Of a stretch of DNA of 64,000 nt, positions 865-62,514 are shown piece after piece (the first letter of the stretch is position 1; the number at the start of each line of letters is the position of its first letter). A program made the position numbers and the translations under genes. The notes beneath the pieces are model-generated. The model was not told the DNA's origin, did no database searches, and saw only the letters and a list, made by a program, of their open reading frames with translations. This DNA comes from a virus: positions 62,001-126,000 of the IMG/VR virus record IMGVR_UViG_3300009108_000751, one strand, 5' to 3'.

Positions 865-2027
865 GAAAAGTTGTTTTAAGAGCACCTGTTCTTACACAAA
901 GTGGATACGGAGTTCACAGCAGGCAAGTGGCACGCTGGCTCATCGGCTTAGCAGAAACTAACCAGATCAACTTGACAATTCAATGCGTGCCCTGGGGTGA
1001 TACTACGTGGTTTACTAATGGCGATGCACTTGAGGGATTAATTAATAAGATTTTCAAATATTCGGGAGGAGAGGTTCAAGATGCCGACGTTTCCTTCCAA
1101 GTGATTCTTCCAAATGAGTGGCAAAATATTGCCAAGTATAATGTGGGAATAACTGCAGGAATAGAGACAGATAGGTGCCATCCCAGCTGGATAAACGCAG
1201 TAAACTCTATGCACGCTGTAGTAGTACCGTCAGAGCATGCCAAGAAATGCTTTACAAATACGGGAAGAATAAACAAGGATATTATTGTTATTCCTGAGTC
1301 TTTCCCGGATGTTCTCACCCAAGAACCAGATCTTGAAAAATTTGACTTTAACACCGACTTCAATTTTCTTGTTTTCGGGCAGCTTACAGCCATGAATTTT
1401 CAAGATGATAGAAAAAATATTTTCAACACGCTTAAGGTTCTGGTCAATACTTTCAAAGATAAGGAAGATGTCGGGATTATTCTAAAGTCTAATGTAGGTC
1501 GATCTACAATCATGGATTTTAAGCAAATTCAGGGAGTTTTGACTGCACTCTTAAAATCTATAGGGCACAAAGGAAGTCCAAAAGTTTATCTCTTGCATGG
1601 AAATATGTCTGATGACGATCTACGTGATCTTTATAAGCACCCGAAAGTTAAAGCCCTTGTAACGATGACAAGAGGAGAAGGCTTTGGCCTACCGATCTTA
1701 GAATCAGCTGCATGCGGAGTTCCTGTCGCCGCCACACGCTGGTCAGCCCATACTGATTACATGAAAAGAGATTCTTATTTGAATATCAAATACGATCTTG
1801 TAGAGGTTAGCGATTCCAGAGTTGACGGTAATCTGTTTATCAAGGGAATGAAGTGGGCAGAAGCAAGTGAAAAATCTGCATCTGAGGAGTTAGAAAAGCT
1901 TTATAAGTATTATTCTGTTTATGATAAAAGAGCTCGTGCACACCAGGAGGTAATCCTTGAAAGTCACAGCTTTGATTCGATTCAGGGCAAATACCAAGAG
2001 CATTTTTATAAGCTACTATGTTCATAG
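861..2027 (+). CDS. Glycosyltransferase, GT4-like
   Basis: This 388-residue protein has the full length of a GT-B glycosyltransferase. The N-terminal half starts with a typical first strand and a GYGVHSRQ glycine-rich loop. The C-terminal half has the E-x7-E signature (E273 and E281 in RGEGFGLPILE) followed by ACGVPVAATRWSAHTDY, which fits the donor-binding loop of family GT4. The ATG at 861 overlaps the stop of the preceding glycosyltransferase (ATGA), so the pair is one translational unit and may act in succession on the same acceptor. Nothing in the sequence identifies the sugar. The next small gene overlaps its end by 10 bases. Confidence 0.8.
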   Translation: MRKVVLRAPVLTQSGYGVHSRQVARWLIGLAETNQINLTIQCVPWGDTTWFTNGDALEGLINKIFKYSGGEVQDADVSFQVILPNEWQNIAKYNVGITAGIETDRCHPSWINAVNSMHAVVVPSEHAKKCFTNTGRINKDIIVIPESFPDVLTQEPDLEKFDFNTDFNFLVFGQLTAMNFQDDRKNIFNTLKVLVNTFKDKEDVGIILKSNVGRSTIMDFKQIQGVLTALLKSIGHKGSPKVYLLHGNMSDDDLRDLYKHPKVKALVTMTRGEGFGLPILESAACGVPVAATRWSAHTDYMKRDSYLNIKYDLVEVSDSRVDGNLFIKGMKWAEASEKSASEELEKLYKYYSVYDKRARAHQEVILESHSFDSIQGKYQEHFYKLLCS

Positions 2028-2299
2028 GCCTGATTACATTAAGTATAATATGCGCCATCCAGTTCTTTTTTATAGTTAGATTTGCAAGAGCTGTATTTCA
2101 ATTTGAAGACAGGATCGAGATCGCGCTAGATAAGATAGATGAGTCTTACAGCGTAATTAGTGAGATATTAGAGCGACCTCTTTTTTTTGACAGTCCTGAA
2201 ATTAGAGAAGTTCATAGGCAGATTGGCATGGTCAACACCTATTTACTGAGTGTCGCAAGCGACTTGGCTAATGTTGAAGTCGATCAAGAAGAGGAATGA
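2018..2299 (+). CDS. Small membrane-anchored protein of unknown function
   Basis: This 93-residue protein has one hydrophobic N-terminal segment (about residues 2-22) and then a charged, probably helical cytoplasmic part ending in an acidic tail (DQEEE). The start overlaps the glycosyltransferase gene by 10 bases and the next start follows after only three bases, so it belongs to the same transcript. I do not recognise a named family. From memory, similar single-span proteins occur beside the late sigma gene in marine T4-like phages, but the sequence does not give a function. Confidence 0.6.
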   Translation: MFIGLITLSIICAIQFFFIVRFARAVFQFEDRIEIALDKIDESYSVISEILERPLFFDSPEIREVHRQIGMVNTYLLSVASDLANVEVDQEEE

Positions 2300-2302
2300 G
2301 AT

Positions 2303-3070
2303 TTGACAACTACCAAAAAAGGCAAAGGTAAGCGCAGAAGAAAAAATACAGATCCCAAAGTAGCCCAAAAGAAAAAGCAGATAAAGCTGTATTTTAATGA
2401 AGGTACGCAGAAAGCAATAGAAGAATTCCAGGCGGCAGAAACTGATGAAGAAAAAAATAAGATCTACACTGAGTCTATTCTTCCGGCATTTGACAAGCTT
2501 TCAGAAAACTTAATCTTCATTCATAAGTTCACATCACTTCATGAATCTTACGAGGATTTAAAAAATGACTGCGTTACTTTTCTATATGAGACGCTTTATA
2601 AGTTTGATCCATCGAGAGGGACAAAGGCGTTTTCATATTTTAATGTCGTTGCAAAGAATTTTTTGATTATTAAGTCTAAGCAGAAGACAGCTTTTTTAAG
2701 GAGAAGCGTAAGTATAGAAGATGAAAGAATGTTTTCTGCGGGAGAAAGGCACTCTTACCAAGAAAAAAATGTAGTCGATAGTCCCGTAGCATCTCTGGTA
2801 AAAGAAGATGATCTTAGGCTGATATTTGGTATGCTTAAGCACCTCACAGGAGAGGCGAGAACTGACAATGAAAAAGCTTGCATCAACGCAATCACTACGC
2901 TGTTTGAAAACGCAAATGATCTAGAGTTTCTAAATAAGCGTGCAGTTTTTGTCTATCTTAGAGAGATGAGCGGACTATCACCTAAACAGCTTACGACTAC
3001 GATATCCAACCTTAAGAAAAAATATAGAGCATTGAAAGAAAACGATGAGTTCAGAATCTTCTTCGAATGA
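2303..3070 (+). CDS. Late-transcription RNA polymerase sigma factor, gp55-like
   Basis: The product (255 residues) starts at a TTG, 5-10 bases after an AGAGGAATG ribosome binding site. A very basic N-terminus (KKGKGKRRRK) leads into a sigma region 2-like block: LKNDCVTFLYETLYKFDP, then GTKAFSYFNVVAKNFLI, which fits the core-polymerase-binding and -10-recognition helices of gp55-type sigma factors as I know them from marine T4-like phages. It is longer than T4 gp55 (185 residues). The C-terminal end, EFRIFFE, is hydrophobic and acidic. T4 gp55 uses a C-terminal tail of that character to contact the sliding clamp, so clamp-coupled late transcription is an inference. It would be expected to read the YATATYTA motifs found before the structural genes here. 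Confidence 0.75.
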   Translation: MTTTKKGKGKRRRKNTDPKVAQKKKQIKLYFNEGTQKAIEEFQAAETDEEKNKIYTESILPAFDKLSENLIFIHKFTSLHESYEDLKNDCVTFLYETLYKFDPSRGTKAFSYFNVVAKNFLIIKSKQKTAFLRRSVSIEDERMFSAGERHSYQEKNVVDSPVASLVKEDDLRLIFGMLKHLTGEARTDNEKACINAITTLFENANDLEFLNKRAVFVYLREMSGLSPKQLTTTISNLKKKYRALKENDEFRIFFE

Positions 3071-3368
3071 TCCAAAATCTAAAGAAGAGATTTGGACAGA
3101 AATATATCAGAATGCCTTCCAGGATAGGGAGAAAGCTAGTATGCTGGTTACCAATCTGTGGAAGGAAATAACAGCCGACCCGGAAAAACATATCCTGTAC
3201 GGAACTACAGTATCAAAATACCTAGAAAGAATGGCAAAGTCAAACGACCAGCTTGTTAAGCTAGCAGAGCTTATGCAAAAATCTGATATCGTTGCTGAAG
3301 AAGAAGATATTGACTTAGACGACGTGTACAGCAAGATGGATACAGTAAAAATAAAGCCGTCAGAGTAA
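3045..3368 (+). CDS. Small acidic protein after the late sigma gene
   Basis: This 107-residue protein starts at an ATG 26 bases inside the end of the sigma gene. It is predicted to be mostly helical, with a serine-rich start, a middle region EIWTEIYQNAFQDREKA and an acidic stretch EEEDIDLDD near the end. I do not recognise it by sequence. The coupling to a gp55-like gene, the size (T4 gp33 is 112 residues) and the acidic C-terminal region make a late-transcription co-activator like gp33 a reasonable guess, but no residue-level match supports it. A small terminase or core protein cannot be excluded. Confidence 0.6.
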   Translation: MSSESSSNDPKSKEEIWTEIYQNAFQDREKASMLVTNLWKEITADPEKHILYGTTVSKYLERMAKSNDQLVKLAELMQKSDIVAEEEDIDLDDVYSKMDTVKIKPSE

Positions 3369-3371
3369 ATT

Positions 3372-5018
3372 ATGAGCATGGAAGATTTAAAACATGGCGG
3401 TGACGTCCTCCCCGTACTTAATCAAAATTCAACAGTCATCAAGCAGGCATTGGTCCTGGAAATTGTTGATAACCCGGCTCAATTCAAAAATAATGACTTT
3501 CTTGATGTATTTCTCAAGAAGATCGGAAATGCTCCTACTCCCTATTTGAAGACTAGTCTACCAGGTCCTCTTAGAAGGCAGCTCAAGATGGCTCCGAGAA
3601 ATGCCGTGATTGCTATCTTGCTAGACGATACAAATGCAGCCTCCGGCGGCGCAAAGCTTTTTTATCCTCTTTTTTCCCAGCATTTATCCCTCCCAGTAAA
3701 ACCAGGAGAAAACGTATGGATTATCTCTGAAGCGCTACAAAGTCAATTCAGTGTAACTAAGAGCGAGGTACCGCAAGGAGATTCTGCAGTCGACGGAGAA
3801 TTAATTTGTAGCGGATACTGGATGTCAAGAGTAGTAGCTCCTGACTATGCAGACGATATAAATTTCACTCACGCCGATCGAAGCCGAAGCCAGGAATATG
3901 TTAACCAGCAAAAAGGAAAACGGCCAGCCCAGCTGGCACCCCCGCCGTTTCACAATGGTATTTATTCTAATGATCCTGAAAATCCAGGGTTGGTAAACAC
4001 TTACACTTTGCCGGCCACTAATGATTACAACAGAATCTACATAGAATCTCAATCTAATAGAAGGACGACTAGAGAGCCTGTTCCAGAATTTACCAAGCGC
4101 CCGGGTGATATAGTAATTCAGGGTTCTAACAATGCTTTGATCTGTGTAGGTGAGGATCGACCTAATCCTGGTAACGGTGAGTCCAACGTAAATTACAAAT
4201 CTGAGGCTCCTCTTGAAAAACCACGCCTCGATGCAAAAGCAGGCACTATTGACATGGTCGCCGGAAGAGCCCTGATTAGAGAGGGCGAAAGCTTTAAGTT
4301 CGATCCAGAAAAAATAACTACGGTTGCTAATGCCCGTGAAGGTGAAACAGAGAAAGAAAAGAGATCCTGGGCAAAACCCAATAATGAGCCGTCTCAAAAG
4401 ATAAACGAGGGTGACATAAGCTTTATTAAGGATCTTTCTCGAGTTTATATTTCTATGAAGACAGACGGTGACAAGAACCTTGGATATGAGGAGCCTAAGT
4501 TTCTTCCAAAGATAGGTGAAGAATTTCCTTCTGCTCCTGTAGACAGTTCTGCTTACGTGATATCACGTGCCAAAGAGATAAGAATAGTTGCAGCTCAAGA
4601 AAGAGACGAAGAAGGTGCAATATCCACTGATGTTGCTACTGCAGGCAGCATCCGCATAATCAAAGAAGGTACGAGAGACGAAGATGGGCACTCAATTGAC
4701 CAGGGTGTCATCCAGTTCAATCCTGACGGAACATTAGTCATCGACAGTCCATCGATGATCATTGGCTCTGGTAAAGAGGGTGCAAATGGCGAAGGTACAC
4801 AGGTCTACATCGGAAATAATGCCACTGAACCCCTAGTTCTTGGAAACGCGCTAAGAGTCTTTTTAGGAAAGCTGCTAGGTGCTATGGAGGCAAATGCCCC
4901 CAATTTTGTCGCCACGGGCGTTGGGCCGGGCATATTAAACCCTGCAATTCTAAGTGAGATATCAGCTTTTAAAGCCCAGCTGGATACGATTCTCAGTAAG
5001 AATGCTAAGACTAAGTAG
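3372..5018 (+). CDS. Baseplate hub protein with OB-fold, gp5-like
   Basis: The 548-residue product has an N-terminal region (about residues 20-160) that looks like the OB-fold of T4 gp5 and related hub proteins: a first strand KQALVLEIV, then LPGPLRRQLKMAPRNAVIAIL, a GENVWIIS strand and the GYWMSRV segment. A second set of strands (GDIVIQGSNNALICVG) follows near residue 245. The C-terminal part has GVIQFNPDGTLVIDSP and EPLVLGNAL, like the end of hub or spike proteins that load onto the central tail axis. I see no lysozyme catalytic domain between them, so it lacks the cell-wall-cutting insertion of T4 gp5. It sits just before a hydrophobic protein and the gp25 and gp6 wedge genes. Confidence 0.55.
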   Translation: MSMEDLKHGGDVLPVLNQNSTVIKQALVLEIVDNPAQFKNNDFLDVFLKKIGNAPTPYLKTSLPGPLRRQLKMAPRNAVIAILLDDTNAASGGAKLFYPLFSQHLSLPVKPGENVWIISEALQSQFSVTKSEVPQGDSAVDGELICSGYWMSRVVAPDYADDINFTHADRSRSQEYVNQQKGKRPAQLAPPPFHNGIYSNDPENPGLVNTYTLPATNDYNRIYIESQSNRRTTREPVPEFTKRPGDIVIQGSNNALICVGEDRPNPGNGESNVNYKSEAPLEKPRLDAKAGTIDMVAGRALIREGESFKFDPEKITTVANAREGETEKEKRSWAKPNNEPSQKINEGDISFIKDLSRVYISMKTDGDKNLGYEEPKFLPKIGEEFPSAPVDSSAYVISRAKEIRIVAAQERDEEGAISTDVATAGSIRIIKEGTRDEDGHSIDQGVIQFNPDGTLVIDSPSMIIGSGKEGANGEGTQVYIGNNATEPLVLGNALRVFLGKLLGAMEANAPNFVATGVGPGILNPAILSEISAFKAQLDTILSKNAKTK

Positions 5019-5648
5019 ATGGCGCTCGACCAACAAAAGCTTGTAGATGGTCTAAAAGACGCTTTTGCAAAAGGCAGAGAAGTAGAAGAGAAAACTACAC
5101 AAGATGACCAGGGAAACGAGGTTAAGGTAAGCGAGGCTAAGAATAGTCAATCTGACATCGCCGGCTTTATCGCAGATGCCATCATCACCTATGCTAGTGA
5201 TGCCGAGATAATGATTCCCATACCTTCGACGTTAATAGTGATAGCACCTCCAGCCCCACCCGATGCAGCCTCTGCAGGCGCGAAGCTGAAAGTGAAAACT
5301 GCCCAAGTGGGAAAGCCCGCGCTTCAGACAGCTATTCTTACCAGCATGAACACACAAGATGTGGCGATGACTGCCATCACGAGCGGGATCGTGGCATACG
5401 TTGCGGCTTCATTTATTGCGTTTGCAAATTCCATCAATACCATCACAGGTGCAGGAGCTGCAGTGATGGCTGTACCACCTCTGTTGGTTACGCCTCTTGC
5501 TGTAGGAATAGCGGGAGGTGAGGAGGATGATGTGATCAATGCGATGGCTACTGTGATTCACGCTTCTTTTCTGAGTACCCTCTTTACGGGAGCAGGCGCT
5601 AATACTGCTCCACCTGCTGCAGGTCCAATTGTCAGTACTCTCATGTAG
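5019..5648 (+). CDS. Hydrophobic Ala/Pro-rich protein beside the hub gene
   Basis: The 209-residue product starts directly after the hub gene stop (TAG then ATG). Residues 1-45 are polar and charged. The rest is rich in Ala, Ile, Val and Pro, with alternating hydrophobic segments (IADAIITYASDAEIMIPIP, later GIVAYVAASFIAFANSI) that look like two related halves rather than plain membrane spans. I do not recognise a named family. From memory, similar proteins sit next to hub or spike genes in other marine myoviruses, so a baseplate or tail-tip component is the best inference. A TATATTTAAC motif follows the stop, so the next gene may begin a new transcript. Confidence 0.55.
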   Translation: MALDQQKLVDGLKDAFAKGREVEEKTTQDDQGNEVKVSEAKNSQSDIAGFIADAIITYASDAEIMIPIPSTLIVIAPPAPPDAASAGAKLKVKTAQVGKPALQTAILTSMNTQDVAMTAITSGIVAYVAASFIAFANSINTITGAGAAVMAVPPLLVTPLAVGIAGGEEDDVINAMATVIHASFLSTLFTGAGANTAPPAAGPIVSTLM

Positions 5649-5650
5649 AG

Positions 5651-5660
5651 TATATTTAAC
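5651..5660 (+). promoter_or_regulatory. Candidate late promoter -10 motif (TATATTTAAC)
   Basis: The motif lies in the 79-base gap between the hub-associated gene and the gp25 gene, 77 bases before the ATG at 5728. It matches the YATATYTA pattern found before other structural genes here and resembles the T4 late promoter TATAAATA at most positions. No -35 element is expected for a gp55-type promoter. Confidence 0.4.
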
Positions 5661-5727
5661 TGTTGAGCATGAATACTGATTAATAAAGTCAGTGTAGTAG
5701 TTAGTTATCTACAGGGTTGTGTACAAA

Positions 5728-6201
5728 ATGGCAGCTATAAGCTTTAAGAACGTGGGTGAGAAACTCGACGAATATCAAAATCGTCAAGCAGACATTTCAC
5801 CTACACCTATCGGTATTGCTACTCCCTTAAGGCTGAGTACTACGCAGCAAGATATTTTTGAGATGCACTACGCATTACAAGATCAAATTGAGGATAACTT
5901 AAGAAACCTTATTTTGACAAACCACGGAGAAAGATTAGGTTTATATGACTTTGGTGCAAATTTACAACCCATACTTTTTTCTTTAACGGGCGCATCTTTT
6001 GAAACTGAGTGCATGAGAAGAATTAAGGTGGCAGCAAGAAAATATTTGCCCTTTATTGATCTGGAGACTTTTGAGGTAGCAACTGACAATAGATCAACAA
6101 GTAAGAGTCTTGCGACCATAGCAATCACCCTGGCGTATGGAATACCTGCCTTAGGTGTGACTGGTAAAAAGATGAGCGTCTTGCTCACTGCAGGAGGATA
6201 A
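5728..6201 (+). CDS. 25: Baseplate wedge protein, gp25-like
   Basis: This 157-residue protein has the typical GPW/gp25 family core: DQIEDNLRNLILTNHGERL, then YDFGANLQPILFSL, then the helix ending RKYLPFIDLETFEV. gp25 joins the wedge arms and lies next to the tail sheath in the baseplate. A GTG at 5719 could extend it by three residues, but the ACAGGG ribosome-binding sequence (5712-5717) would almost touch that GTG, so the ATG at 5728 is preferred. It is followed after three bases by gp6, the same order as in many contractile tail clusters. Confidence 0.85.
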   Translation: MAAISFKNVGEKLDEYQNRQADISPTPIGIATPLRLSTTQQDIFEMHYALQDQIEDNLRNLILTNHGERLGLYDFGANLQPILFSLTGASFETECMRRIKVAARKYLPFIDLETFEVATDNRSTSKSLATIAITLAYGIPALGVTGKKMSVLLTAGG

Positions 6202-43975: not shown

Positions 43976-46465
43976 ATGTCAGTCCTGAAAGTTGGACCTG
44001 AAAATTTTGAGCTGATAACTATCCAGGCTGCTCCCAAGAATGTCTTTAAATCTGGGACCCTTGGGATAACAGGATCTGCTCCCCTTTTCGCAAGAAAATC
44101 AGATATGCTCAAAGAGGTTGTGCCTTTAGCGCCTCTTTCGCGAAGCTTCTATACAGAAAATACATTTCAGGAAGCGTTCAATGACTATCGTGATAGATCA
44201 TCTCAAGCCGTTAGAGATGCGACGCCAGCCCTCACTGGAAATTTTGAAGGAGCAGCATCGGCCCTATTAGAAAAAGTAAACTCACTTAGTAAGTCTCCGT
44301 CGCAGGATATTGAATCTAAGATCATAAGGTTCGAACCTTCATTTACATTCACAGCAGATACGGGTAGAAAATTAGCTATCACCAACGGATTGATGCCAAC
44401 CTACCTCCCAAGATACCCCACCTCGCAGTTTGCTTATCACAATTATCATACTCTGAATTTTTTCACGTCGTCTCAGGTGCCAAGCTCTGCTGTGCTCCTG
44501 TACCCTAATTCAGCATCTCAAGCAGATCCCAATCAAATCTCAGGATCTTATGTGGTGTCTGATGCGTTTACGTTTGAATTCTACATAAAGCCAAGATGTT
44601 ACTTAGAACAACCAGGATCAGTTAGGGCAGGAACAATCCTTCACTTGAGCTCTACATACGCTGTTTCTTTGATCCCTGGCTCCTCAAGAGACGGCAAAAG
44701 CACACCTGATGCCTTTAGATTACAGCTCCAGCTAAGCCACAGTGCAGATACTGAGCCTCGAAGCGCCACACCAGGCGCCTACCCGAACGACCTAGTATTC
44801 CTCTCAGATGACAATGTTTTAAAGCGGGATCACTGGCACCACGTTGCAATTAGATGGGGAGCCAGCAATGACGGAAAGCAAGGAAATTTTTATGTTGACA
44901 ACGAGTCCGCCGGCAATTTTACCGTATCATTAGCTTCTATAGCACCCGCACCCATGGTTCACAATCCAGGCGTATTGGCGGTCGGAAATTACTTTGTAGG
45001 GTCAAATTCAGGAAACAATAGGCAGACCAGGTTTTTCACTGCCAGAAATGCTGGCCGCGAAGGCCTTGCAATAATGGACCCTGGATCAAATGCTGAAAAT
45101 CCCGTATCTTACAACTTTAATCATCCTCTTACAGCTGAGCTTCACGAAGTAAGAATATTCGACACATTCAGGTCTGACCAGGACATTGTTGACGGAAGCA
45201 AGAGAGGGATCGATCGTACTGCCCCTGGCCTGAAGTTCTATCTTCCGCCCATGTTTACAGCGCACTCCCCCAGAAGAAAACAACTCGGAGGATTTGGAGG
45301 AGTTCTCCAGACACCTTTCTTCGGCTCCCCGGGAAGTACTACAGATCCGTTTAATATCGCTTTGTCGTATGGTGTAGGTGGACATTATCTTAATTTAGAG
45401 AATTTTACGCAAGATTTTGCAACCCGCAACTTCCCCCGGGCGATGAACTTAACAGGTGCCCAAATTACTGCAACGACACAAGCAAAGAGCTGCAATACCT
45501 TCCTTTATTCCACGGCATCTGTCAGATACAGAAATCTTTTTATGCCTCCGTGTGACAACGGTAATTTTATGCCCAATTTTGATCTGATTCGCCAGATTGA
45601 GACAGGTTCATTACCTACCGTTAAGGTGAAAACAGGCTCTAATTATTACAAGTATCGAAATGATCTTGGGGATGTAGATCTTAGCTTGATAAACCTCAGA
45701 GATCAGCTACCGTCAAGCTCTTTTGTAAATTACATAGTCGATTACTCTCCTTTCAATAAGGATGGAGATGAAGAAGTTAATAGAGATCAAAACGGCGCGA
45801 TTATAAGCGATCACATCGTTCACGTGGGTTCCGGATTTGAGAACCAAATTATGGGTCCAGGACCAGGTGACATGGGAATTGACCCAGGAGAGGTCCTCAC
45901 AATCTTCCAGAGAACCCGAGATGACAGCTCTAATGAAATTGTGATGTTCGATATTAGCAATCTGTTCTATGGGTCTAGAATTAAACCTGGAACCTTTAAG
46001 ATAGTTGACACAAATCAAACCGGGTCATTTGGTGCCCAGGCTATGACTCTGAGAGATGACGGTCATGGCAATCTTTATCGTGCAGACGCCAAGACAAAAC
46101 ACGCAACTTGGAACTCTGTAGGGAATGTCTTTTACAACGAAGGAATTGCAATCATTAAATCACCTAACATCCCTCTGTTTGGCAAGACTGATGTTGAGGT
46201 TGAATTTAGAGGAGAGAATGAGGTTCATGTTTCTAAGCTAGACATAGTTGCGCCTGCAGGCATGATCAACTCTTCTTCGAATCCAAATTATATAGTTGCA
46301 TCTTCCTCTCTCGATGCCAATGACCAAAACTCTCAGTTTGTTGCAATTACAGGCATTAATTTTCACGATGACAATCTAAACGTTATAATGAAAACGAAGT
46401 TTGCGCAACCCGTAATCAAGCGAAGTAGCGACAAGATTCTTTTTAGAACCAAACTAGATTTCTAA
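43976..46465 (+). CDS. Virion protein with LamG-like domain and FRTKLDF C-terminus
   Basis: The 829-residue product has a LamG/concanavalin-like domain at about residues 195-395: DAFTFEFYIKPR, HWHHVAIRWGASNDG, GNFYVDNESAGNF and ELHEVRIFDTFRSDQDI. The last 45 residues repeat the module at the end of the preceding protein (GINFHDDNLNVIMKTKF, then FRTKLDF). The two proteins are thus C-terminal paralogues, this one with an added lectin-like insertion. The start follows CGGAGACC, and the stop overlaps the resolvase start (TAATG), which links structural and DNA-metabolism genes in one transcript. Confidence 0.6.
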   Translation: MSVLKVGPENFELITIQAAPKNVFKSGTLGITGSAPLFARKSDMLKEVVPLAPLSRSFYTENTFQEAFNDYRDRSSQAVRDATPALTGNFEGAASALLEKVNSLSKSPSQDIESKIIRFEPSFTFTADTGRKLAITNGLMPTYLPRYPTSQFAYHNYHTLNFFTSSQVPSSAVLLYPNSASQADPNQISGSYVVSDAFTFEFYIKPRCYLEQPGSVRAGTILHLSSTYAVSLIPGSSRDGKSTPDAFRLQLQLSHSADTEPRSATPGAYPNDLVFLSDDNVLKRDHWHHVAIRWGASNDGKQGNFYVDNESAGNFTVSLASIAPAPMVHNPGVLAVGNYFVGSNSGNNRQTRFFTARNAGREGLAIMDPGSNAENPVSYNFNHPLTAELHEVRIFDTFRSDQDIVDGSKRGIDRTAPGLKFYLPPMFTAHSPRRKQLGGFGGVLQTPFFGSPGSTTDPFNIALSYGVGGHYLNLENFTQDFATRNFPRAMNLTGAQITATTQAKSCNTFLYSTASVRYRNLFMPPCDNGNFMPNFDLIRQIETGSLPTVKVKTGSNYYKYRNDLGDVDLSLINLRDQLPSSSFVNYIVDYSPFNKDGDEEVNRDQNGAIISDHIVHVGSGFENQIMGPGPGDMGIDPGEVLTIFQRTRDDSSNEIVMFDISNLFYGSRIKPGTFKIVDTNQTGSFGAQAMTLRDDGHGNLYRADAKTKHATWNSVGNVFYNEGIAIIKSPNIPLFGKTDVEVEFRGENEVHVSKLDIVAPAGMINSSSNPNYIVASSSLDANDQNSQFVAITGINFHDDNLNVIMKTKFAQPVIKRSSDKILFRTKLDF

Positions 46466-47019
46466 TGTCATTTACAATCGGGCTTGATATTTCCACCTCG
46501 TGCACGGGCATATGCGTCCTCAATAAAGATGGCCATCTCAAGATTCTTACACACTTAAAGTATCCTCCTAAGATGTCCCTGTGGGCTAAAGCAGATCTCA
46601 CTAGAGAAACTTTAATGACGCTTAGAGAGCAATACAATCTCGTGATATCCGACTTCTTTGTAGAGGAAAGTTTGCAAAAGTTTCGACCAGGACTTTCGTC
46701 AGCAAAGACTCTAACAACCCTTTCTAAGTTCAATGGGATTGTGTGCTATCTGGGAAGAGAAGTTCTTGGATTAGACCCAGTGTCAATTAATGTTAATGCA
46801 GCAAGAAAGGCCGTCGGGCTAAAAATTCCAAGAGGATCTAATGCTAAAGATATCGTTCATAGCTGGGTATCCGAAGAGACTAGTTACGATTGGCCTACTA
46901 AGATTTTAAAGAGTGGACCTCGCAAGGGGAAGGAAGTAATGATCAATGAGTGCTATGATATGGCTGATGCATATCTTATCGCTCGAGCAGGCCAGAATCT
47001 TGTAAATCAGGATACTTGA
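46465..47019 (+). CDS. RuvC-like Holliday junction resolvase
   Basis: The 184-residue protein has the RNase H-fold signature of RuvC-type nucleases: the first acidic residue D8 in TIGLDISTSCTGICV, acidic residues E67-E68 at the end of the DFFVEES strand, and D165/D168 in ECYDMADAYLIA near the C-terminus. RuvC-type enzymes cut four-way junctions, here most likely to debranch replicated phage DNA before packaging, the role of T4 endonuclease VII, which is not related. It is the first gene of an island that also encodes a primase and the SbcDC fusion. Arginine codons are mainly AGA, like the structural genes. Confidence 0.75.
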   Translation: MSFTIGLDISTSCTGICVLNKDGHLKILTHLKYPPKMSLWAKADLTRETLMTLREQYNLVISDFFVEESLQKFRPGLSSAKTLTTLSKFNGIVCYLGREVLGLDPVSINVNAARKAVGLKIPRGSNAKDIVHSWVSEETSYDWPTKILKSGPRKGKEVMINECYDMADAYLIARAGQNLVNQDT

Positions 47020-47035
47020 ATCTTATAATTATTTG

Positions 47036-48004
47036 ATGAGCTTATCGACGACTGAAGAAAAGGTCTCCTTCGTAAGGAGCGTTTTCGGTAAAACCCGGCT
47101 GATGAATGACGGCATTAATGCACACGTCAGATGCCCTGAGTGCGGCAAGGGTGACAAGAAGAAATTTGTAATTAGGTTAGATAACGATTTATGCCACTGC
47201 TTTGTTTGTGGCCTTAAAGGGCGAACCCTAGCGCCCATCCTCAAGAAGTACTTTCCAAAATATCACAGAGAGTATTGCGAGAAGTTTCTGGGAACTGATC
47301 TTGCATCTTCGCCGGATGATGTCGAGAAAGACTTAGAAGTCAGACTACCTGATGATTTCACTCTGCTTGTAGATCCTGCCATAAATCTAGGTGATCCCGA
47401 TATCCGTGATGTTCTTGCTTATCTTAAGCGAAGAGGAATGAAAAACCGGGACATGTGGTACTTTAAGTTCGGAGTCTCTGTTCACAGCGGATTCAGGAGA
47501 CGCGCCATCTTTCCATCGTATGACGCGGAAGGAAAACTTAATTTCTATACAGGTCGAGACATTGACGGTGAAAGGTTTCCCAAGTACTTAAATGCGTCAG
47601 TTGACAAAAAGGAGATGGTCTTCAATGAACTGTTTATTGACTGGTCATCTGAGTTAACGATAGTGGAAGGGCCATTCGATTTAGTTAAATGCAATGATAA
47701 TGCAACATGTCTTCTTGGGTCTTTTCTGGCCCGAGACTCGCTGTTATTCCAAAAGATTATTGAGCATAAGACGCCAGTACTCCTTGCCTTGGATCCTGAT
47801 GCTAAGACAAAAACTATAAAAATAGCACGATCCTTGTTAGAATATGATGTGCCTGTTCGTATGCTCGATCACGGAGAGCATGACGATGTCGGTGACATGA
47901 CGAAGCAAGAGTTCTCAAGGAGGAGGCAACATGCTAAATCGTGGAACAACACACAAGGCCTGTTAGCAAAAATCCAAAATATGACACTAGGAAGCGTCCT
48001 TTAA
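47036..48004 (+). CDS. DNA primase, DnaG/gp61-type
   Basis: The 322-residue protein has the N-terminal zinc-binding domain (C33-P-E-C36, then C55-F-V-C58) and a TOPRIM domain (E211 in LTIVEGPFDLVK, D253 and D255 in LLALDPDA). It would make RNA primers at the replication fork. A short middle region (YTGRDIDGERFPKYLN) fits the RNA-polymerase part of DnaG-like primases. No helicase domain is attached. The first possible start is a TTG at 47033, directly followed by ATG at 47036, which I chose; no clear ribosome binding site precedes either. It lies between the resolvase and the SbcDC fusion. Confidence 0.8.
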   Translation: MSLSTTEEKVSFVRSVFGKTRLMNDGINAHVRCPECGKGDKKKFVIRLDNDLCHCFVCGLKGRTLAPILKKYFPKYHREYCEKFLGTDLASSPDDVEKDLEVRLPDDFTLLVDPAINLGDPDIRDVLAYLKRRGMKNRDMWYFKFGVSVHSGFRRRAIFPSYDAEGKLNFYTGRDIDGERFPKYLNASVDKKEMVFNELFIDWSSELTIVEGPFDLVKCNDNATCLLGSFLARDSLLFQKIIEHKTPVLLALDPDAKTKTIKIARSLLEYDVPVRMLDHGEHDDVGDMTKQEFSRRRQHAKSWNNTQGLLAKIQNMTLGSVL

Positions 48005-48007
48005 TAT

Positions 48008-51000
48008 ATGACAATAAAAGTAGCACACATAGCTGATGTTCACTTTCGCAGCTTATCAAGGCACCAGGAGTACCGTCAGGTTTTCCAGGATTTTGTGCAG
48101 CAGTGTAGAGAGCTAAAACCTGATGTTATCTACGTCGGCGGTGACATCTATCACACAAAGACACAGGGGATCTCTCCTGAGCTGATCGATGAGCTTACAC
48201 ACTGGATGAGAACGCTGGCAGACACAGCACCTCTTCACATGATCCTCGGCAACCATGATGGAAATCTTGTAAATGCCGGCCGACAGGACGCTATTACGCC
48301 CATCTTTGATGCGCTTGATCACCCCAACGCTTTCCTCTACAAGAAATCAGGCATCTATCCAACTGGAGTCCCAGGCTATAACTGGGCAGTCTTCTCATGC
48401 TTTGACGAAGAGGGGTGGAAAGACGTCAAGCCTGTTGAGGGCGAGATCAATATCGCTACTTTCCACGGCTGTGTGGTAGGATCAAAGACAGACCAGAACT
48501 GGGAGCTTGAGGGCGATGTACCCCTTAATTTCTTTGACCCTTACGACTTTACGATGCTGGGAGATATTCACAAGTTCCAGATCCTAAACGAGGAAAAGAC
48601 CGTTGCTTACCCAGGCTCTACAGTCCAGCAAAATTACGGAGAAGACCCAGATAAAGGATTTCTCTTTTGGGATATCAGGTCACCAGATGATTTCGATCTT
48701 ACGTTCCATCGCCTAACTAATCCACACCCCTTTGTCACAGTGGATTGGCAGGGTAATGTGCGTGACACGCTGCATGAGGCCAAGAAGTATAAGAAGGGTT
48801 CACGCTTCAGATTGCGAACCACTGAGAATATTCCCCAGCTTGAGATCAAACAGATTCACAACGAGTTGAAGGTGGCCAGGAATGCCAAAGAAGTCGTTTG
48901 GAAGTTTGATCAAGGGGTCGATGCAAATGACATTGTAGACAGTGAATCTCTTATCAAAAAGGAAGACCTTCGCGATCCTAAAGTACAGATGAAGATCTTA
49001 GGTGAATACGCGACCATCACTAAGTTTGATGACGAGGAATGGGAAGAGATTGGGAAGCTTGTCGATCGATACATTGCACTTGCCACGCAGGATGAGGATG
49101 TGGCGCGCAACGTGAAGTGGTCTATCAAGGAAATTGAGTTTGACAATGTCTTTTCATATGGCAAAGGTAACAAGATTAACTTTGAGAACTTAAACGGTAT
49201 CACTGGTATTCTTGGCAAGAACCGAAGCGGTAAATCCTCTATCGTAGGTACGCTGGTTTACACCCTTTTCAACTCCACTGATCGAGGTTCCATCAAGAAC
49301 CTTCACGTGATCAACAGCCGAAAAGGTCACTGTAGTGCAAAGATGCGTTTCTCAGCCAACAACAAGCGCTACGTTGTGGAGCGCCAAAGCGTACGCAAAG
49401 AAGACAAGAAAGGCCACGTCTCAGCTATTACATCCCTGAACTTCTACCGCGAGGATCCAATGGGTAACGTGATCGAGGATCTCAATGGTGAGCAGAGAAC
49501 CCAGACTGAGAAGGTTATACGTAAGATGCTAGGAAACTCTGAGGATTTCTTGATCACATCCTTAGCGACTCAAGGAAGCATGAACCACTTTATCTCTCAC
49601 GGTTCATCTCATCGGAAGACTATACTTTCCAAGTTTCTCGATCTTGATATCTTTGAGCGCATGGCTGAGTTTGTCAAGCATGACTCCGCATCGATCCGAG
49701 GCAAGATGAGCAACTATCCTGAGCGTGACTGGAATGCTTCAATTGTTGCCCTTAGGAATAAGCGCCGCAAGTACGATGCACAGATCGAGGAAATAGAGCA
49801 TGAACTGGCATCCTTTCGAGAAGACCAGCAAAAGCTTCAGATACAGCTAAGTAACTTTACCGAGGCTGATCTCGTCGACGAGCGTGAGGTTGATGAACAG
49901 AAGGAAGAGCTTCGAAAGGCAAAAGAAAAGTTCGATGATCTTACAGAGAAATGTGACCAATGCGTCGACGAGATTGAAAAGCTGAGCGAACAGGTTGAGG
50001 CCATCGAGGCAGTCAAGGAGCAGTTTCCTATTTCCGAGATTCGTGAGCAGTACGAGAACCTCCAGGATCTGGAGCGCTCCCTCACTAATCTGGAGCACCA
50101 ACGCGAGGTGGCGCGCCAACTCTACAAGAGCCAAGAACGTTCAGTGAAAATTTTAGATGAGGTCCCTTGCGGCGACCAGTTCCCCACTTGCAAATTCATT
50201 AAAGACTCACATAAGAACAGCAGGCTTATCGCCAAGCAGAAAGAGATTATCGACGAGCAGTCATCTGAACTACGAGCGATTCGACGAGCAGTAAAGAAGT
50301 TGCAGGAGCAGAATCTTAAGGAGAAGATCGACAAGTATGACACGCTTCTTACGAGGCTGTCTGATACGGAAGTAAAGGTATCCCGTAAGCAGTCTGAGTA
50401 CGATCTTTTCTCACGTGACTTGGACGTGGCTGAGGATCATATGCTTCGATGCAAAAAAGTCCTGGTGGAGATGAAGCTTCGTGTTAATACATCAAACCTA
50501 ACTGAGGCAGCTCGTAGAGTTAAGGATATGCTGGGCGACATTAACAGCCAGATTAAAAAGAAGGACGCGCAGCGCATTTCCGCAGCAGAAATGAAAGGAA
50601 ATACCGATAGCCAGATTAAAAAGCTACAGACTGAACGTGATGACTTTGCTGAACTGAGAAAAACCTGGAAGATGTATGACTTTCTCATGAAGTCCTGGTC
50701 CAAGAAGGGTATTCCCACTCAGATTATTCGAACGCAGCTTCCTGTTATCAATACAGAGATCGAGAAGATCTTAAGTAGCGTCACAGACTTTACTGTTAAG
50801 CTTGAAGCTGATAACGACTCTAACGCTCTTGATATTTTCCTAGACTATGGTGACAGCAAGCGTATTATTGAGCTGGCTTCTGGTATGGAAAAGATGATAT
50901 CTTCTCTAGCAATGCGGGTGGCCTTGCTAAATGTTTCATCTCTTCCGAAGACAGATATGCTCATCATCGACGAAGGTTTTGGCACCCTTGATGAGACAAA

Positions 51001-51151
51001 TGTTGAGGCATGTAACAGGCTTTTAACTTCCCTTAAGAAGTGGTTTAAGAATATTCTTGTGATCACTCACGTTGATTCTGTGAAAGATGTCGTCGATCAA
51101 GCGATTGAGATCGGAAACAAAGGTATAGATTCCTATGTCCACCTTGAATAG
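48008..51151 (+). CDS. Fused SbcD-SbcC (Mre11-Rad50, gp47-gp46) protein
   Basis: One uninterrupted frame of 1047 residues holds both subunits of the recombination nuclease complex. Residues 1-340 are a full Mre11/SbcD phosphoesterase: D10-x-H12, D46 in GGDIYH, GNHD (81-84), H153 and GDIH (185-188). Residues 370-1047 are a Rad50/SbcC ATPase: Walker A GKNRSGKSS (403-411), coiled coils around a hook with C721 and C728 (CGDQFPTC, not the usual CxxC), a signature-like LASGMEKMISS near residue 955, and Walker B MLIIDE (984-989) followed by a D-loop. In T4, gp46 and gp47 are separate proteins that resect DNA ends for recombination-dependent replication. Arginines are mostly CGN here, unlike the neighbours. 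No strong ribosome binding site is visible. Confidence 0.85.
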   Translation: MTIKVAHIADVHFRSLSRHQEYRQVFQDFVQQCRELKPDVIYVGGDIYHTKTQGISPELIDELTHWMRTLADTAPLHMILGNHDGNLVNAGRQDAITPIFDALDHPNAFLYKKSGIYPTGVPGYNWAVFSCFDEEGWKDVKPVEGEINIATFHGCVVGSKTDQNWELEGDVPLNFFDPYDFTMLGDIHKFQILNEEKTVAYPGSTVQQNYGEDPDKGFLFWDIRSPDDFDLTFHRLTNPHPFVTVDWQGNVRDTLHEAKKYKKGSRFRLRTTENIPQLEIKQIHNELKVARNAKEVVWKFDQGVDANDIVDSESLIKKEDLRDPKVQMKILGEYATITKFDDEEWEEIGKLVDRYIALATQDEDVARNVKWSIKEIEFDNVFSYGKGNKINFENLNGITGILGKNRSGKSSIVGTLVYTLFNSTDRGSIKNLHVINSRKGHCSAKMRFSANNKRYVVERQSVRKEDKKGHVSAITSLNFYREDPMGNVIEDLNGEQRTQTEKVIRKMLGNSEDFLITSLATQGSMNHFISHGSSHRKTILSKFLDLDIFERMAEFVKHDSASIRGKMSNYPERDWNASIVALRNKRRKYDAQIEEIEHELASFREDQQKLQIQLSNFTEADLVDEREVDEQKEELRKAKEKFDDLTEKCDQCVDEIEKLSEQVEAIEAVKEQFPISEIREQYENLQDLERSLTNLEHQREVARQLYKSQERSVKILDEVPCGDQFPTCKFIKDSHKNSRLIAKQKEIIDEQSSELRAIRRAVKKLQEQNLKEKIDKYDTLLTRLSDTEVKVSRKQSEYDLFSRDLDVAEDHMLRCKKVLVEMKLRVNTSNLTEAARRVKDMLGDINSQIKKKDAQRISAAEMKGNTDSQIKKLQTERDDFAELRKTWKMYDFLMKSWSKKGIPTQIIRTQLPVINTEIEKILSSVTDFTVKLEADNDSNALDIFLDYGDSKRIIELASGMEKMISSLAMRVALLNVSSLPKTDMLIIDEGFGTLDETNVEACNRLLTSLKKWFKNILVITHVDSVKDVVDQAIEIGNKGIDSYVHLE

Positions 51152-51422
51152 AGAAATAACATATCATGAAGACGGCTTTGTAATAAGTAAAGAGCCTGAC
51201 AATTCAACCCAACCCCTAGACTGTCCCGTATGCGGATATTTCATGCTAACCGACACAGATTCTCATGCCTGGAACGAATACAGCTGCTGTCACGAATGCA
51301 CTATCACATGGGCAGAAGGCCCAAATAAGAAAAAATGGAAATCAGGCTGGCGACCCGACCCAGAAGTGATCAGCGCAGAAGTGAAAAGACGCAGCAAGAT
51401 CGTTCCTCGGTTAAAATTGTGA
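51135..51422 (+). CDS. Small zinc-ribbon protein
   Basis: This 95-residue protein has two cysteine pairs, CPVC near residue 30 and C-C-HEC near residues 51-55, followed by WAEGPNKKKWKSGWRP. The spacing suggests one zinc ribbon. The start lies inside the last codons of the SbcDC gene. I recall similar small zinc proteins in marine T4-like phages, with no assigned role. The basic C-terminus would allow nucleic-acid binding, but that is not shown. Confidence 0.65.
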   Translation: MSTLNREITYHEDGFVISKEPDNSTQPLDCPVCGYFMLTDTDSHAWNEYSCCHECTITWAEGPNKKKWKSGWRPDPEVISAEVKRRSKIVPRLKL

Positions 51423-51431
51423 TTATGCGTG

Positions 51432-51446
51432 ATAGTTAATAACGTT
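51432..51446 (+). promoter_or_regulatory. Candidate promoter (ATAGTTAATAACGTT) before the packaging genes
   Basis: The element lies in the 43-base gap before the gene at 51466. With the preceding G it agrees with the first 16 bases of the 28477 element (TATAGTTACTACCGTT) at 13 positions. The distance to the start codon, 34 bases, is in the range of the other candidates. Confidence 0.3.
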
Positions 51447-51465
51447 CCATTGTGAGGTAATTAGT

Positions 51466-51891
51466 ATGCTTTCATCCGAAGACGTAAATGCGATTGGTCA
51501 ACTAACCAATACAACCTTTGGTTACTCATCCACAGGTGAGACCACCTATCAAGTCCCGGCAGGTCGTTCAATCACTTGTAAACTAAGTGGTGAATCCGGC
51601 GAAGACCAACTTATAGTTAAGTTCGTCACTGTCATCACTTTGCACGAATCTGAAAGAAACCTTTTAGATCCCAAGAATCCGGCAGCGCAGCAAGCAGAGC
51701 TCGAATCTATCAAGATGATAAAAGACTACACTGACAATCTTAAGAAGTCTTATAAGGATTCGATGGATAAAAGCTTAAAGCTAAAAGAAGTTAGTAGCAC
51801 AGACAGTATTGAGCTGGTAAACTACAATATTTTTAGCCCGGTGAGACAAGTATATTACAGACGAAACACGGTCTATAACGTGAGCATCTAA
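51466..51891 (+). CDS. Unknown protein coupled to the large terminase
   Basis: The 141-residue product starts after GAGG and its stop overlaps the terminase start (TAATG). The first 60 residues look beta-rich (ETTYQVPAGRSITCKLSGESG) with one central strand DQLIVKFVTVITL; the rest has a helical charged segment (YTDNLKKSYKDSMDKSLKLK) and a final strand region VRQVYYRRNTVYNVSI. The small terminase subunit often occupies this place, but such subunits are mainly helical, so I do not call it that. A virion or packaging accessory is possible. Confidence 0.5.
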   Translation: MLSSEDVNAIGQLTNTTFGYSSTGETTYQVPAGRSITCKLSGESGEDQLIVKFVTVITLHESERNLLDPKNPAAQQAELESIKMIKDYTDNLKKSYKDSMDKSLKLKEVSSTDSIELVNYNIFSPVRQVYYRRNTVYNVSI

Positions 51892-53495
51892 TGGCTTCTA
51901 AGCCAGGAAAACAAGCTCAAGTAAAAGAGATCATCCAGTGCGGAAAAGACTCTCTTTACTTCATGCAAAAATATGTAAAGATCCAGCATCCCACTAGAGG
52001 TTTGATCTCATTTGACACGTTTCCATTTCAAGATGACTGTGTCACGCATTTTAACGATAATCGATTTAATGTTATTCTCAAGTCCCGACAGCTAGGGCTC
52101 TCCACCCTGGTCGCGGCCTACGCATTATGGATGGGGATCTTCCAGCGAGACAAGAACATACTGGTTATTGCGACAAAGCTTTCAGTCGCTCAAAACTTCA
52201 TTAGAAAAGTCAAGGTAATGCTGAGGTCACTACCTCCGTGGCTTGTATTACCTGAAGTTACCGCTGATAACAAGCAGACAATAGAGTTTAGTCACGGCTC
52301 AGTTATCAAGGCTATTCCAACCTCCGATGATGCAGGTCGTTCTGAAGCGCTGTCGCTTCTCATTATAGATGAGGCCGCATTCGTTAAGAACTTTGATACG
52401 CTGTGGATGGGTTTATATCCTACCTTATCCACAGGTGGTCGAGCCATTGTTCTCTCTACTCCAAATGGCGTGGGCGGTCAATATCATAAGCTCTACACAG
52501 AAGCAATGTTAGGTGAGAATGAGTTTAACTCAATTAACTTACCCTGGAGCGTGCATCCAGAGAGAGATGAAGAGTGGTTCCAGAGAGAAACTCGCAACAT
52601 GTCAAAGAGGCAGATTGCCCAAGAGCTTCTGTGTGACTTTGTGGCATCAGGTGAGACATTTCTTCAATCTGATCATCTTGAGTGGATTAGGGAGAATATT
52701 CGAGAGCCAAGAGAAAGAAAATTTGAAGACAGGAATTTGTGGGTCTGGGAGAACCCATTGTCTGCTCACAAGTATGTAATGTCTGCAGACGTCTCTCGAG
52801 GAGATGCAAAGGATTATTCCACATGCCACGTCATCGATGTTACGACATCGGAAATTGTCGCTGAATACAAAGGTAAAATACCACCAGATAGATTTGGGGA
52901 AATGCTAGATGATCTAGGGCGTCAGTACAACAATGCTTTACTAGCCCCTGAAAACAACACCTTTGGCTACACTACTGTTATGAAACTAAAAGAGCTTAAT
53001 TACCCTAATCTTTACTATCAAAAAGCCCGCGGTGTTTACCTGGGAAGCTACACACCCCAGTCTGAGAAAGAAGTGGGTGGATTTTCCACGCAAGGACAGT
53101 CTCGAGTTCAAATTATTTCTAAGCTCGAAGAGATGATTCGTAACAAGATGCTTAAGACATACTCACAGCGCCTTTATGATGAGCTTAAAACCTTTGTCTG
53201 GAAAGGGCAAAAACCCCAGGCAATGAAAGGCCAGCACGATGATCTCGTGATGAGCTTAGCGATTGGAACCTGGCTTTTCGATATATACGGAGGCGGTGGC
53301 GGATCGTCTAATTCTGACCTTAACGAAGCAATGATCGCAGCAATGTCTACGGAGTCTCGTCCTGCCTCTGATCTTTCTCAAGATAGAAGAGCACCGTTCC
53401 CTACCAACCCATTCAAACCTGTCCAGCAAGAATCGTGGGAAAAGGGTAATAAAGGGTTTGACCCTAAGAGAGATTATGACTGGTTGCTTAAATAG
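51891..53495 (+). CDS. 17: Terminase large subunit, gp17-like
   Basis: The 534-residue protein has the ATPase and nuclease domains of a packaging motor. The Walker A region is SRQLGLST (65-72), in which the usual lysine is replaced as in many large terminases; R66 may serve. Walker B is LLIIDE (156-161). The C-terminal RNase H-like nuclease has D300 in MSADVSRGD, E354 in APENN and D450-D451 in GQHDDLVMSLA. It cuts and pumps DNA into the prohead through the portal, whose gene follows. The start overlaps the preceding stop. After the stop comes a gap of 73 bases with a candidate promoter. Confidence 0.9.
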   Translation: MASKPGKQAQVKEIIQCGKDSLYFMQKYVKIQHPTRGLISFDTFPFQDDCVTHFNDNRFNVILKSRQLGLSTLVAAYALWMGIFQRDKNILVIATKLSVAQNFIRKVKVMLRSLPPWLVLPEVTADNKQTIEFSHGSVIKAIPTSDDAGRSEALSLLIIDEAAFVKNFDTLWMGLYPTLSTGGRAIVLSTPNGVGGQYHKLYTEAMLGENEFNSINLPWSVHPERDEEWFQRETRNMSKRQIAQELLCDFVASGETFLQSDHLEWIRENIREPRERKFEDRNLWVWENPLSAHKYVMSADVSRGDAKDYSTCHVIDVTTSEIVAEYKGKIPPDRFGEMLDDLGRQYNNALLAPENNTFGYTTVMKLKELNYPNLYYQKARGVYLGSYTPQSEKEVGGFSTQGQSRVQIISKLEEMIRNKMLKTYSQRLYDELKTFVWKGQKPQAMKGQHDDLVMSLAIGTWLFDIYGGGGGSSNSDLNEAMIAAMSTESRPASDLSQDRRAPFPTNPFKPVQQESWEKGNKGFDPKRDYDWLLK

Positions 53496-60597: not shown

Positions 60598-62514
60598 ATG
60601 TCTAAGTTTTCACTCGAAACGCTAGCCGAAGGAATTCGGTCGCGTCACATGGGTGAGGAGAACTCCCGCTTGGTCGAAAAGTGGTCTCGCACCGGTCTGC
60701 TCCGCGGCCTGGAATCAACAAAGCGCGAAAACATGGCGCGCCTTCTTGAGAACCAGACTGCAGAGCTTCTTCGTGAGCAAAGCACAATCGGCACAGGCGG
60801 CGGAGCTGGCACCGCTTCTGGTGACCTTCGCGGTTTCTCCAATATCGCCTTTCCAATCGTTCGTCGTGTATTCGGCGGACTTGTCGCAAATGAGCTGGTA
60901 TCCATCCAGCCCATGAGCTTGCCTTCTGGCCTGCTCTTTTATCTTGACTACACCTACGGTTCTAACGTTGGTGGTGACGCATCTCTCACAACGGGCGATG
61001 CAGGAACCTACGACAAAGAAACGTATCAGCGTGGTCAATCCATCTATAACAACCCAACTGGCAAGGGCGTACGCTCTGGTTCATTGGCAACAGGCGGTCA
61101 GTATGACTTGGTCGGTGCAACTTACTCTAAGGTGCACAGCTCCTCGATCTCACCAACCGTTATGTTTGCTGGTGCACACGGTGCAAACTCATCCTTGACA
61201 TCCGGTTCGTTGTGCCATGCCACAGGTTCAGATGCTAAGTTGCTCCAATTCGATCCTCAAGTTCTTGACTTGATCGAAAACGATCCCGGTCTTGACGGTG
61301 ATGGACGCTTCTGCATCGTCATTGTGGACGTCACTGATGCACCCTTTAACAATGTCGATCTTACGAACGCCAAGGACATTTCCTTGTTCTCAGCAGTTCC
61401 TGAGGTTCGTACAGGTGTTAAAGAGCTTGGTGCTAGCTTCCAGGGCGGCAAAGGTATTCTTAACCTCCGTCGCTTGAACCAGCTTGGTACGTTTGCGAAC
61501 AACAAGTTTACCGCAGATCCCATGGTAACAAGAAGCACATCAAATGCTGCTCTCTTGACAGTTATGTCTGGTAACTTCAGCGGTAAAATTGATGCCGGTG
61601 ATGCTGCTACAGCATACCTCTCAGCATCATATGCCATTGGCCCAACATTGAATGTAGAAGACGGTTCTGGTTCTACCCTTACCATTCCTTCATTCGAATC
61701 TGATTTCGGTACTACACCTTCACCAGTGATCCCTGAAATCGACATTAAGGTTGAGTCCATCGCAGTTACAGCTGCTACACGCAAGCTGAGAGCTCGTTGG
61801 TCGCCAGAATTGGCACAGGACCTTAACGCATACCACAGCCTTGACGCTGAGGTTGAGTTGACACAGATCCTTTCTGAGCAAGTTGCTCTTGAAATCGATC
61901 GTGAAATCCTGAATGACCTGCTTAGCGAAGCCCAGGGCGCAAACCTTTACTGGTCACGTGCTCCAGGCAAGTTCCTGAACAAGGAAACAGGCGCCGAAGT
62001 TAAGTTGAATGACAGCTTATCTGCAGGTCCTCGTTTCACAGGCACAGTTCGCGAATGGTACGAGACCCTGGTCGAGTCCGTTATCGATGTTGCTAACACC
62101 ATCCACCGCAAGACACTCCGTGGTTCCGCGAACTTCGTGGTCACCTCTCCGGATGTCTGCACAATGTTCGAAGCTTCAGTGATGTATCGCCCAAGCCTCA
62201 GCATTGACAGCGAAGGTCAGGTTTCCTCCCCATTCAGCCTCGGTGCTGAAAAGGTTGGTACCTTGAGCAACCGCTTTACGGTCTACAAGGACCCATACTT
62301 CCCTCGCAACAAGATTCTTGTTGGTTATAAGGGTGGTAGCTACCTTGAGACAGGATACGTTTATGCTCCGTATGTTCCGCTGATCGTCACACCAACGATC
62401 TTCGCGCCAGAAGACTTCACCCCTCGTAAGGGCGTGATGACTCGCTACGGCAAGAAGATGGTTCGCGCTGACTTCTACGGTACCGTTACGGTTGCTGACT
62501 TGAACGTCATCTAA
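60598..62514 (+). CDS. 23: Major capsid protein, gp23-like
   Basis: The 638-residue protein has the HK97-type T4 gp23 layout. The N-terminal region (residues 1-60) is helical with L9-A10-E11-G12 and L58-R59-E60 in sequence positions that fit gp21 cleavage; T4 gp23 is cut after residue 65, so E60 is the best counterpart. The mature part starts near GTGGGAGTASGDLRGF and continues with NIAFPIVRRVFGGLVANELVSIQPM and LLFYLDYTYG, typical of gp23. The C-terminal NKILVGYKGGSYLETGYVYA is also conserved. Codon use is strongly shifted to CGN arginines (only two AGA seen). GGGAG precedes the ATG, and a GAAA-loop terminator follows. Confidence 0.95.
   Translation: MSKFSLETLAEGIRSRHMGEENSRLVEKWSRTGLLRGLESTKRENMARLLENQTAELLREQSTIGTGGGAGTASGDLRGFSNIAFPIVRRVFGGLVANELVSIQPMSLPSGLLFYLDYTYGSNVGGDASLTTGDAGTYDKETYQRGQSIYNNPTGKGVRSGSLATGGQYDLVGATYSKVHSSSISPTVMFAGAHGANSSLTSGSLCHATGSDAKLLQFDPQVLDLIENDPGLDGDGRFCIVIVDVTDAPFNNVDLTNAKDISLFSAVPEVRTGVKELGASFQGGKGILNLRRLNQLGTFANNKFTADPMVTRSTSNAALLTVMSGNFSGKIDAGDAATAYLSASYAIGPTLNVEDGSGSTLTIPSFESDFGTTPSPVIPEIDIKVESIAVTAATRKLRARWSPELAQDLNAYHSLDAEVELTQILSEQVALEIDREILNDLLSEAQGANLYWSRAPGKFLNKETGAEVKLNDSLSAGPRFTGTVREWYETLVESVIDVANTIHRKTLRGSANFVVTSPDVCTMFEASVMYRPSLSIDSEGQVSSPFSLGAEKVGTLSNRFTVYKDPYFPRNKILVGYKGGSYLETGYVYAPYVPLIVTPTIFAPEDFTPRKGVMTRYGKKMVRADFYGTVTVADLNVI

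Follow-up and report, generated by a model that had tools for sequence, protein, structure and literature searches.

We analyzed a 64,000-nucleotide window (positions 62,001 to 126,000) of the 235,681-bp IMG/VR virus record IMGVR_UViG_3300009108_000751. It contains an open reading frame in which a complete Mre11/SbcD nuclease and a complete Rad50/SbcC ATPase are fused into a single chain. A preliminary description made from the letters alone had placed one frame of 1047 codons at 48008-51151 (+), and an ORF call confirmed exactly these limits. The gene, its parts and its neighbors are as follows (window positions; aa refers to the fusion protein):

46465..47019 (+), RuvC-like Holliday-junction resolvase (phrog_827, phrog_159)
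47033..48004 (+), DnaG-type primase, TTG start, immediately upstream of the fusion gene (profile match)
48008..51151 (+), Mre11-Rad50 (SbcD-SbcC) fusion gene, ATG start, 1047 aa, no internal stop
48008..48760 (+), Mre11/SbcD nuclease core, aa 1 to about 251, phosphoesterase motifs I-V: D10/H12, D46, N82/H83, H153, D186/H188
48761..48976 (+), putative Mre11 capping-domain region, aa about 252-323, from its position, predicted secondary structure and the architecture of Mre11
48977..49084 (+), helix-loop-helix, helices 324-334 and 342-359 (AlphaFold), predicted Rad50-binding domain of Mre11
49085..49114 (+), linker of about 10 residues, aa 360-369, leading to the first Rad50 strand (AlphaFold)
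49115..49645 (+), Rad50 N-lobe, aa 370-546, Walker A GKNRSGKSS 403-411, Q-loop Q522
49646..50698 (+), antiparallel coiled-coil arms, aa 547-897 (547-718 and 732-897; AlphaFold), with the apex loop, aa 719-731 (50162-50200), carrying hook residues C721 and C728
50699..51148 (+), Rad50 C-lobe, aa 898-1047, signature SGMEK 958-962, Walker B IIDE 986-989, D-loop, H1021
51891..53495 (+), T4-type terminase large subunit, downstream of the fusion gene (profile match)

Profile and structure searches assigned the two halves to the same families. Pfam placed Metallophos at residues 3-188 (1.4e-11) and AAA_23 at 376-649 (1e-6), with a SbcC_Walker_B match at 955-1007 (6.9e-4) that fell under the curated cut-off. 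PHROG 77, a 967-position profile with an SbcC-like annotation, matched residues 252-1043 (5.9e-56), extending into the Mre11 part. In a phmmer search of the PDB the N-terminal part matched SbcD/Mre11 chains and the remainder matched Rad50 chains. The earlier claim of a genuine one-chain Mre11-Rad50, its nuclease lying on the N-terminal side of its ATPase, was right. Locally the AlphaFold model is of good quality (mean pLDDT 80), while its pTM of 0.48 leaves the relative placement of the halves not established; fold matches to the model in the PDB were SbcD (7dog, 4lu9), SbcCD (7yzo, 7yzp) and Rad50 (3auy, 5dny).

The nuclease half carries all five phosphoesterase motifs with their metal-binding residues. 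Across an alignment of 100 family sequences D46, H49, N82, H83, D84, H153, D186 and H188 are invariant, as are D10 and H12 wherever the aligned row has a letter there (97 sequences). Every motif position given in the preliminary description – D10/H12, D46, GNHD 81-84, H153, GDIH 185-188, Walker A 403-411 and Walker B D988/E989 – was correct, but that reading had overlooked two peculiarities: the form of motif V and the C721-x6-C728 spacing of the hook. In this family motif V reads GDxH rather than the usual GHxH, and motif II reads GDxxH. We considered these forms as diagnostic of fusions and rejected them, because unfused phage proteins carry both: among the comparison proteins, GDxH occurs in the Mre11 of PG07 and MAR10, and GDxxH in that of SPO1L1.

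These departures raise the alternative that catalysis has changed in this protein and that its nuclease half serves mainly a structural purpose. D186 and H49, the residues concerned, are invariant in the 100 sequences, and Mimivirus R555 shares both departures, with GDxxH in motif II and Asp in place of the first His of GHxH (PMC3175470). Yet the other metal ligands are also invariant, Asp can ligate metal, the unfused phage proteins just named share one or the other form, and invariance itself argues for function. We therefore regard a structural nuclease half as very improbable. Because GDxH in motif V and SGME in the ABC signature both depart from the E. coli type, the protein can be called no more than presumably active.

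The ATPase half has a complete bipartite ABC head, with Walker A, Q-loop, signature, Walker B, D-loop and H-loop all present. G408, K409, S410, Q522, C721, C728, S958, G959, M960, E961, D988 and E989 are invariant in the 100 aligned sequences, and conservation of the catalytic and hook residues in these family members is far beyond chance. The signature is SGME in all 100, rather than SGGE or SEGE; Mel-JY01, LR756501, LR756508 and pT24 share it, and it is absent from the unfused proteins compared. At the predicted apex of the coiled coil both cysteines are retained, but their spacing is not that of a CxxC zinc hook: it is C-x6-C (VPCGDxFPTCKFI) in 98 of the 100 members, with a longer insert in the other two. 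The hook is CxxC in the comparison proteins, among them those of T4, cyanophages, T5-type phages and E. coli. The ATPase half is thus Rad50-like with a variant hook, not a textbook Rad50. We found no paper on a C-x6-C hook in the open-access literature.

Homologues of gp47 and gp46 lie adjacent or nearly so in many phages, which makes it conceivable that two such genes were joined here by a sequencing or assembly error that removed a stop or frame boundary. To examine other members of the family we assembled 126 IMG/VR loci, 47 from one scan and 80 from a profile scan, with one locus in both; the 80 were fetched from at least 580 relatives, and the 126 include some contigs that were retrieved twice, each time with other flanks. 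A single open frame runs through both halves (at least 1000 query residues covered) in 117 loci, which comprise 99 distinct sequences at 41-100% identity. The remaining nine are eight loci cut by contig ends and one, L042, that is split. The preliminary description had named a stop or frameshift between the halves, in reads or relatives, as what would undo its reading, a concern that the 117 one-frame loci answer; searches for further split copies of the fusion gene found none. One-chain versions were found in deposited phages as well as in these loci, including Mel-JY01, a complete phage genome with the same arrangement.

At the junction, the stretch 340-374 is 34 or 35 residues long in 100 of 100 aligned sequences. 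Across residues 325-385, comparison with L001, a protein 87% identical, gave 8, 4 and 37 differences at codon positions 1, 2 and 3, changing 11 of 61 residues; comparison with L032 gave 12, 6 and 34. Mostly third-position substitutions are the pattern of a stretch that is translated straight through. On the strength of the one-frame relatives and this substitution pattern we rejected an assembly error, which is now only barely conceivable. The architecture of the junction also follows published fusions: Yoshida et al. considered a bridge of 9-12 residues necessary between the Mre11 C-terminus and the Rad50 N-terminus (PMC3175470), and the predicted helix-loop-helix (324-359) is followed here by a predicted linker of 10 residues (360-369), within that range.

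Two distant relatives carry the fusion gene as two ORFs: L042 (3862-7075) and L050 (LR756508.1, a 484-kb uncultured phage; 1944-6169). Their split point is identical, just after nuclease motif V (GDIHxxQ), and both first pieces finish with additional acidic tails that look alike. The two pieces of L050 are separated by an ORF that weakly matches a TnsA-like endonuclease (PF08722, 5.8e-6); in L042 the ATG of the second ORF overlaps the end of the first. An Rfam search found no introns in either locus. The splits resemble the homing-endonuclease 'genes in pieces' of Aeh1 nrdA (PMC2988022).

Outside viruses the matches were partial. Among GTDB genomes, 12 archaeal matches were SMC-like proteins aligned over only ~50 residues around Walker A, and a candidate junction-spanning match, L054, was rejected because its ORF matches only residues 373-426. 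Among the plasmid matches listed, similarity was limited to the ATPase half, at 21% identity.

We placed the family in quick maximum-likelihood trees of Rad50 heads and of concatenated heads plus nuclease. The preliminary description had suggested a distinct phage subfamily, and the family indeed forms one clade with 98% support. Its sister comprises Mel-JY01 and the split LR756508 gene; next out are LR756501 and pT24, two long branches whose join is unsure. The T4-type unfused proteins lie elsewhere, with the fusion protein of phage XacN1 beside them on a long branch (99* support in the concatenated quick tree); given this grouping, XacN1 is probably an independent fusion. On the tree the fused state requires three changes, which would fit fusion having occurred more than once and agrees with the recurrent origin proposed for Mre11/Rad50 fusions (PMC3175470).

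The source of the window is an uncultured T4-related marine phage: its record carries a T4-type portal (PF07230, 1.2e-76), a T4-type prohead protease and the T4-type terminase. In a Pfam search the 235,681-bp record, which may be incomplete, contained one Metallophos and one AAA_23 match, and no second Mre11/Rad50 or separate gp46/gp47 gene was found in it. A RecA-family gene is present at G000:149435, together with a partial A-family polymerase match; no B-family polymerase was found in the record. Gene order around the fusion is fixed – RuvC-like resolvase, primase, fusion, T4-type terminase – at 46465-53495 and in 116 related loci. The RuvC-like gene is upstream in 79 of the 87 loci with more than 2.5 kb of upstream sequence, and the primase in 89 of the 98 with more than 1.2 kb. 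In 116 of the 117 one-frame loci a terminase ORF follows, its start lying 521-1609 nt (median 661 nt) downstream of the fusion; in the remaining locus the sequence stops 652 nt past the fusion gene. The window also encodes an 829-aa protein (43976-46465) directly ahead of the RuvC-like gene, in which Pfam places a Laminin_G_3/concanavalin-like domain right at its cut-off (3.8e-6).

We consider it highly probable that the protein is a single-chain Mre11-Rad50 end-resection enzyme for recombination-dependent replication, perhaps also serving concatemer maturation. Fusion in one chain fixes the Mre11:Rad50 stoichiometry at 1:1. Two such chains would pair by way of the nuclease domains and the ATP-engaged heads to form an M2R2 particle. 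Driven through its ATP cycle, the enzyme would resect double-strand ends with its nuclease and so provide 3' overhangs for a phage RecA/UvsX-like recombinase, as gp46/gp47 do in T4, the model for this analogy (PMC3175470). By this analogy an M2R2-type resection enzyme for recombination-dependent replication is the most likely identity. The location between resolvase/primase and terminase suggests a role in replication and possibly the processing of branches or ends before packaging, a link to packaging that gene order alone brings in.

The same gene order could instead point to a job different from, or additional to, that of gp46/gp47: the protein would process ends or branches in step with packaging, together with the RuvC-like resolvase and terminase, rather than work mainly in early recombination and replication. 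The near-constant downstream terminase and the upstream RuvC-like and primase genes fit such a role, and T4 instead keeps gp46/47 in its replication cluster beside 45, 44 and 62. Phage gene order, however, often reflects inheritance, and the primase neighbor argues for replication; we give this alternative some weight but think it unlikely. A more far-reaching version, in which the protein is a functionally distinct, packaging-linked Mre11-Rad50, would draw together the single chain, SGME, the fixed position beside the terminase and resolvase, and a longer C-x6-C hook that coordinates or tethers differently; the protein would then process branched concatemers for packaging, either in addition to initiating recombination or in its place. 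This appears somewhat less likely again. We therefore retain the resection enzyme for recombination-dependent replication as our reading.

The preliminary description implied that the fusion was new, which does not hold. Yoshida, Claverie and Ogata (Virol J 2011) had already reported Mre11/Rad50 fusions for Mimivirus R555 and a further twelve proteins, spanning Bacillus phage 0305phi8-36, plasmids, bacteria and eukaryotes, and argued that the helix-loop-helix and 9-12-residue linker are compatible with the two-protein complex (PMC3175470). One-chain proteins also occur in the deposited phages Mel-JY01, XacN1 and pT24. Knowledge that such fusions exist is therefore unchanged; the family described here is a well-populated branch, widespread in aquatic phages, of fusions known since 2011. 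In that study R555 homologues were abundant in viral-fraction aquatic metagenomes, some with phage primases on the same scaffolds, and the full fusion was confirmed for only a few long environmental sequences (PMC3175470). A single scan of the collection gave no fewer than 580 matching stretches, an abundance that confirms at full length what had been seen in short metagenomic reads. New here are a supported phage clade with full-length cases, its catalytic Mre11 residues, SGME, the altered hook and the fixed synteny. We found no later paper on one-chain phage Mre11-Rad50 in the open-access literature, and no biochemistry on this clade. A constitutively 1:1 Mre11-Rad50 would be easy to work with experimentally, being encoded by one gene, free of subunit mixing and fixed in its linker, and its C-x6-C hook offers a natural variation on a zinc tether that has been studied extensively.

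Compared with R555 and its relatives, the phage protein has the same order in one chain, Mre11 N-terminal and Rad50 C-terminal, with a helix-loop-helix region and short linker, and it too is aquatic with a primase neighbor, as for the metagenomic homologues of R555 (PMC3175470). R555, compared by its published description, differs in length (1351 aa versus 1047 aa here) and the C-x6-C hook is a feature of the phage protein. Giant-virus fusions (Tupanvirus, Harvfovirus, Yasminevirus), at about 18-21% identity to the phage protein, were the top structure-search matches, with phage one-chain proteins also among the first.

Among phages, a similar fusion is that of Microcystis phage Mel-JY01 (PP395634), whose WWT39521, annotated 'AAA domain containing protein', is one 1066-aa ORF that aligns over its full length, with the SGMEK signature, GDIH and a primase-like gene upstream; it differs in its 28% identity, CxxC-type hook and position as a sister lineage outside the family clade. 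Xanthomonas phage XacN1 ORF305 (1099 aa) is likewise a one-chain Mre11-Rad50 of a jumbo phage, though it groups with T4-type unfused proteins. A 1310-aa 'DNA repair' protein of Tenacibaculum phage pT24 (L156, 3980-7912) looks like a one-chain Mre11-Rad50, and phage PTm1 has a similar protein. The annotated one-chain Mre11-Rad50 of Yersinia phage vB_Yru_GN1 (L052, LC779065.1, 2010-4805) lacks N-terminal motifs I and II in the alignment, and its nuclease half may be truncated or inactive. The pairs gp47 and gp46 of T4, and their cyanophage, T5-type and SPO1-type counterparts, have the same two functional halves and a recombination or end-processing role, but they are two chains with a CxxC hook, other signature sequences and a separate clade in the trees, and in T4 they sit with 45/44/62, whereas the fusion sits beside the terminase.
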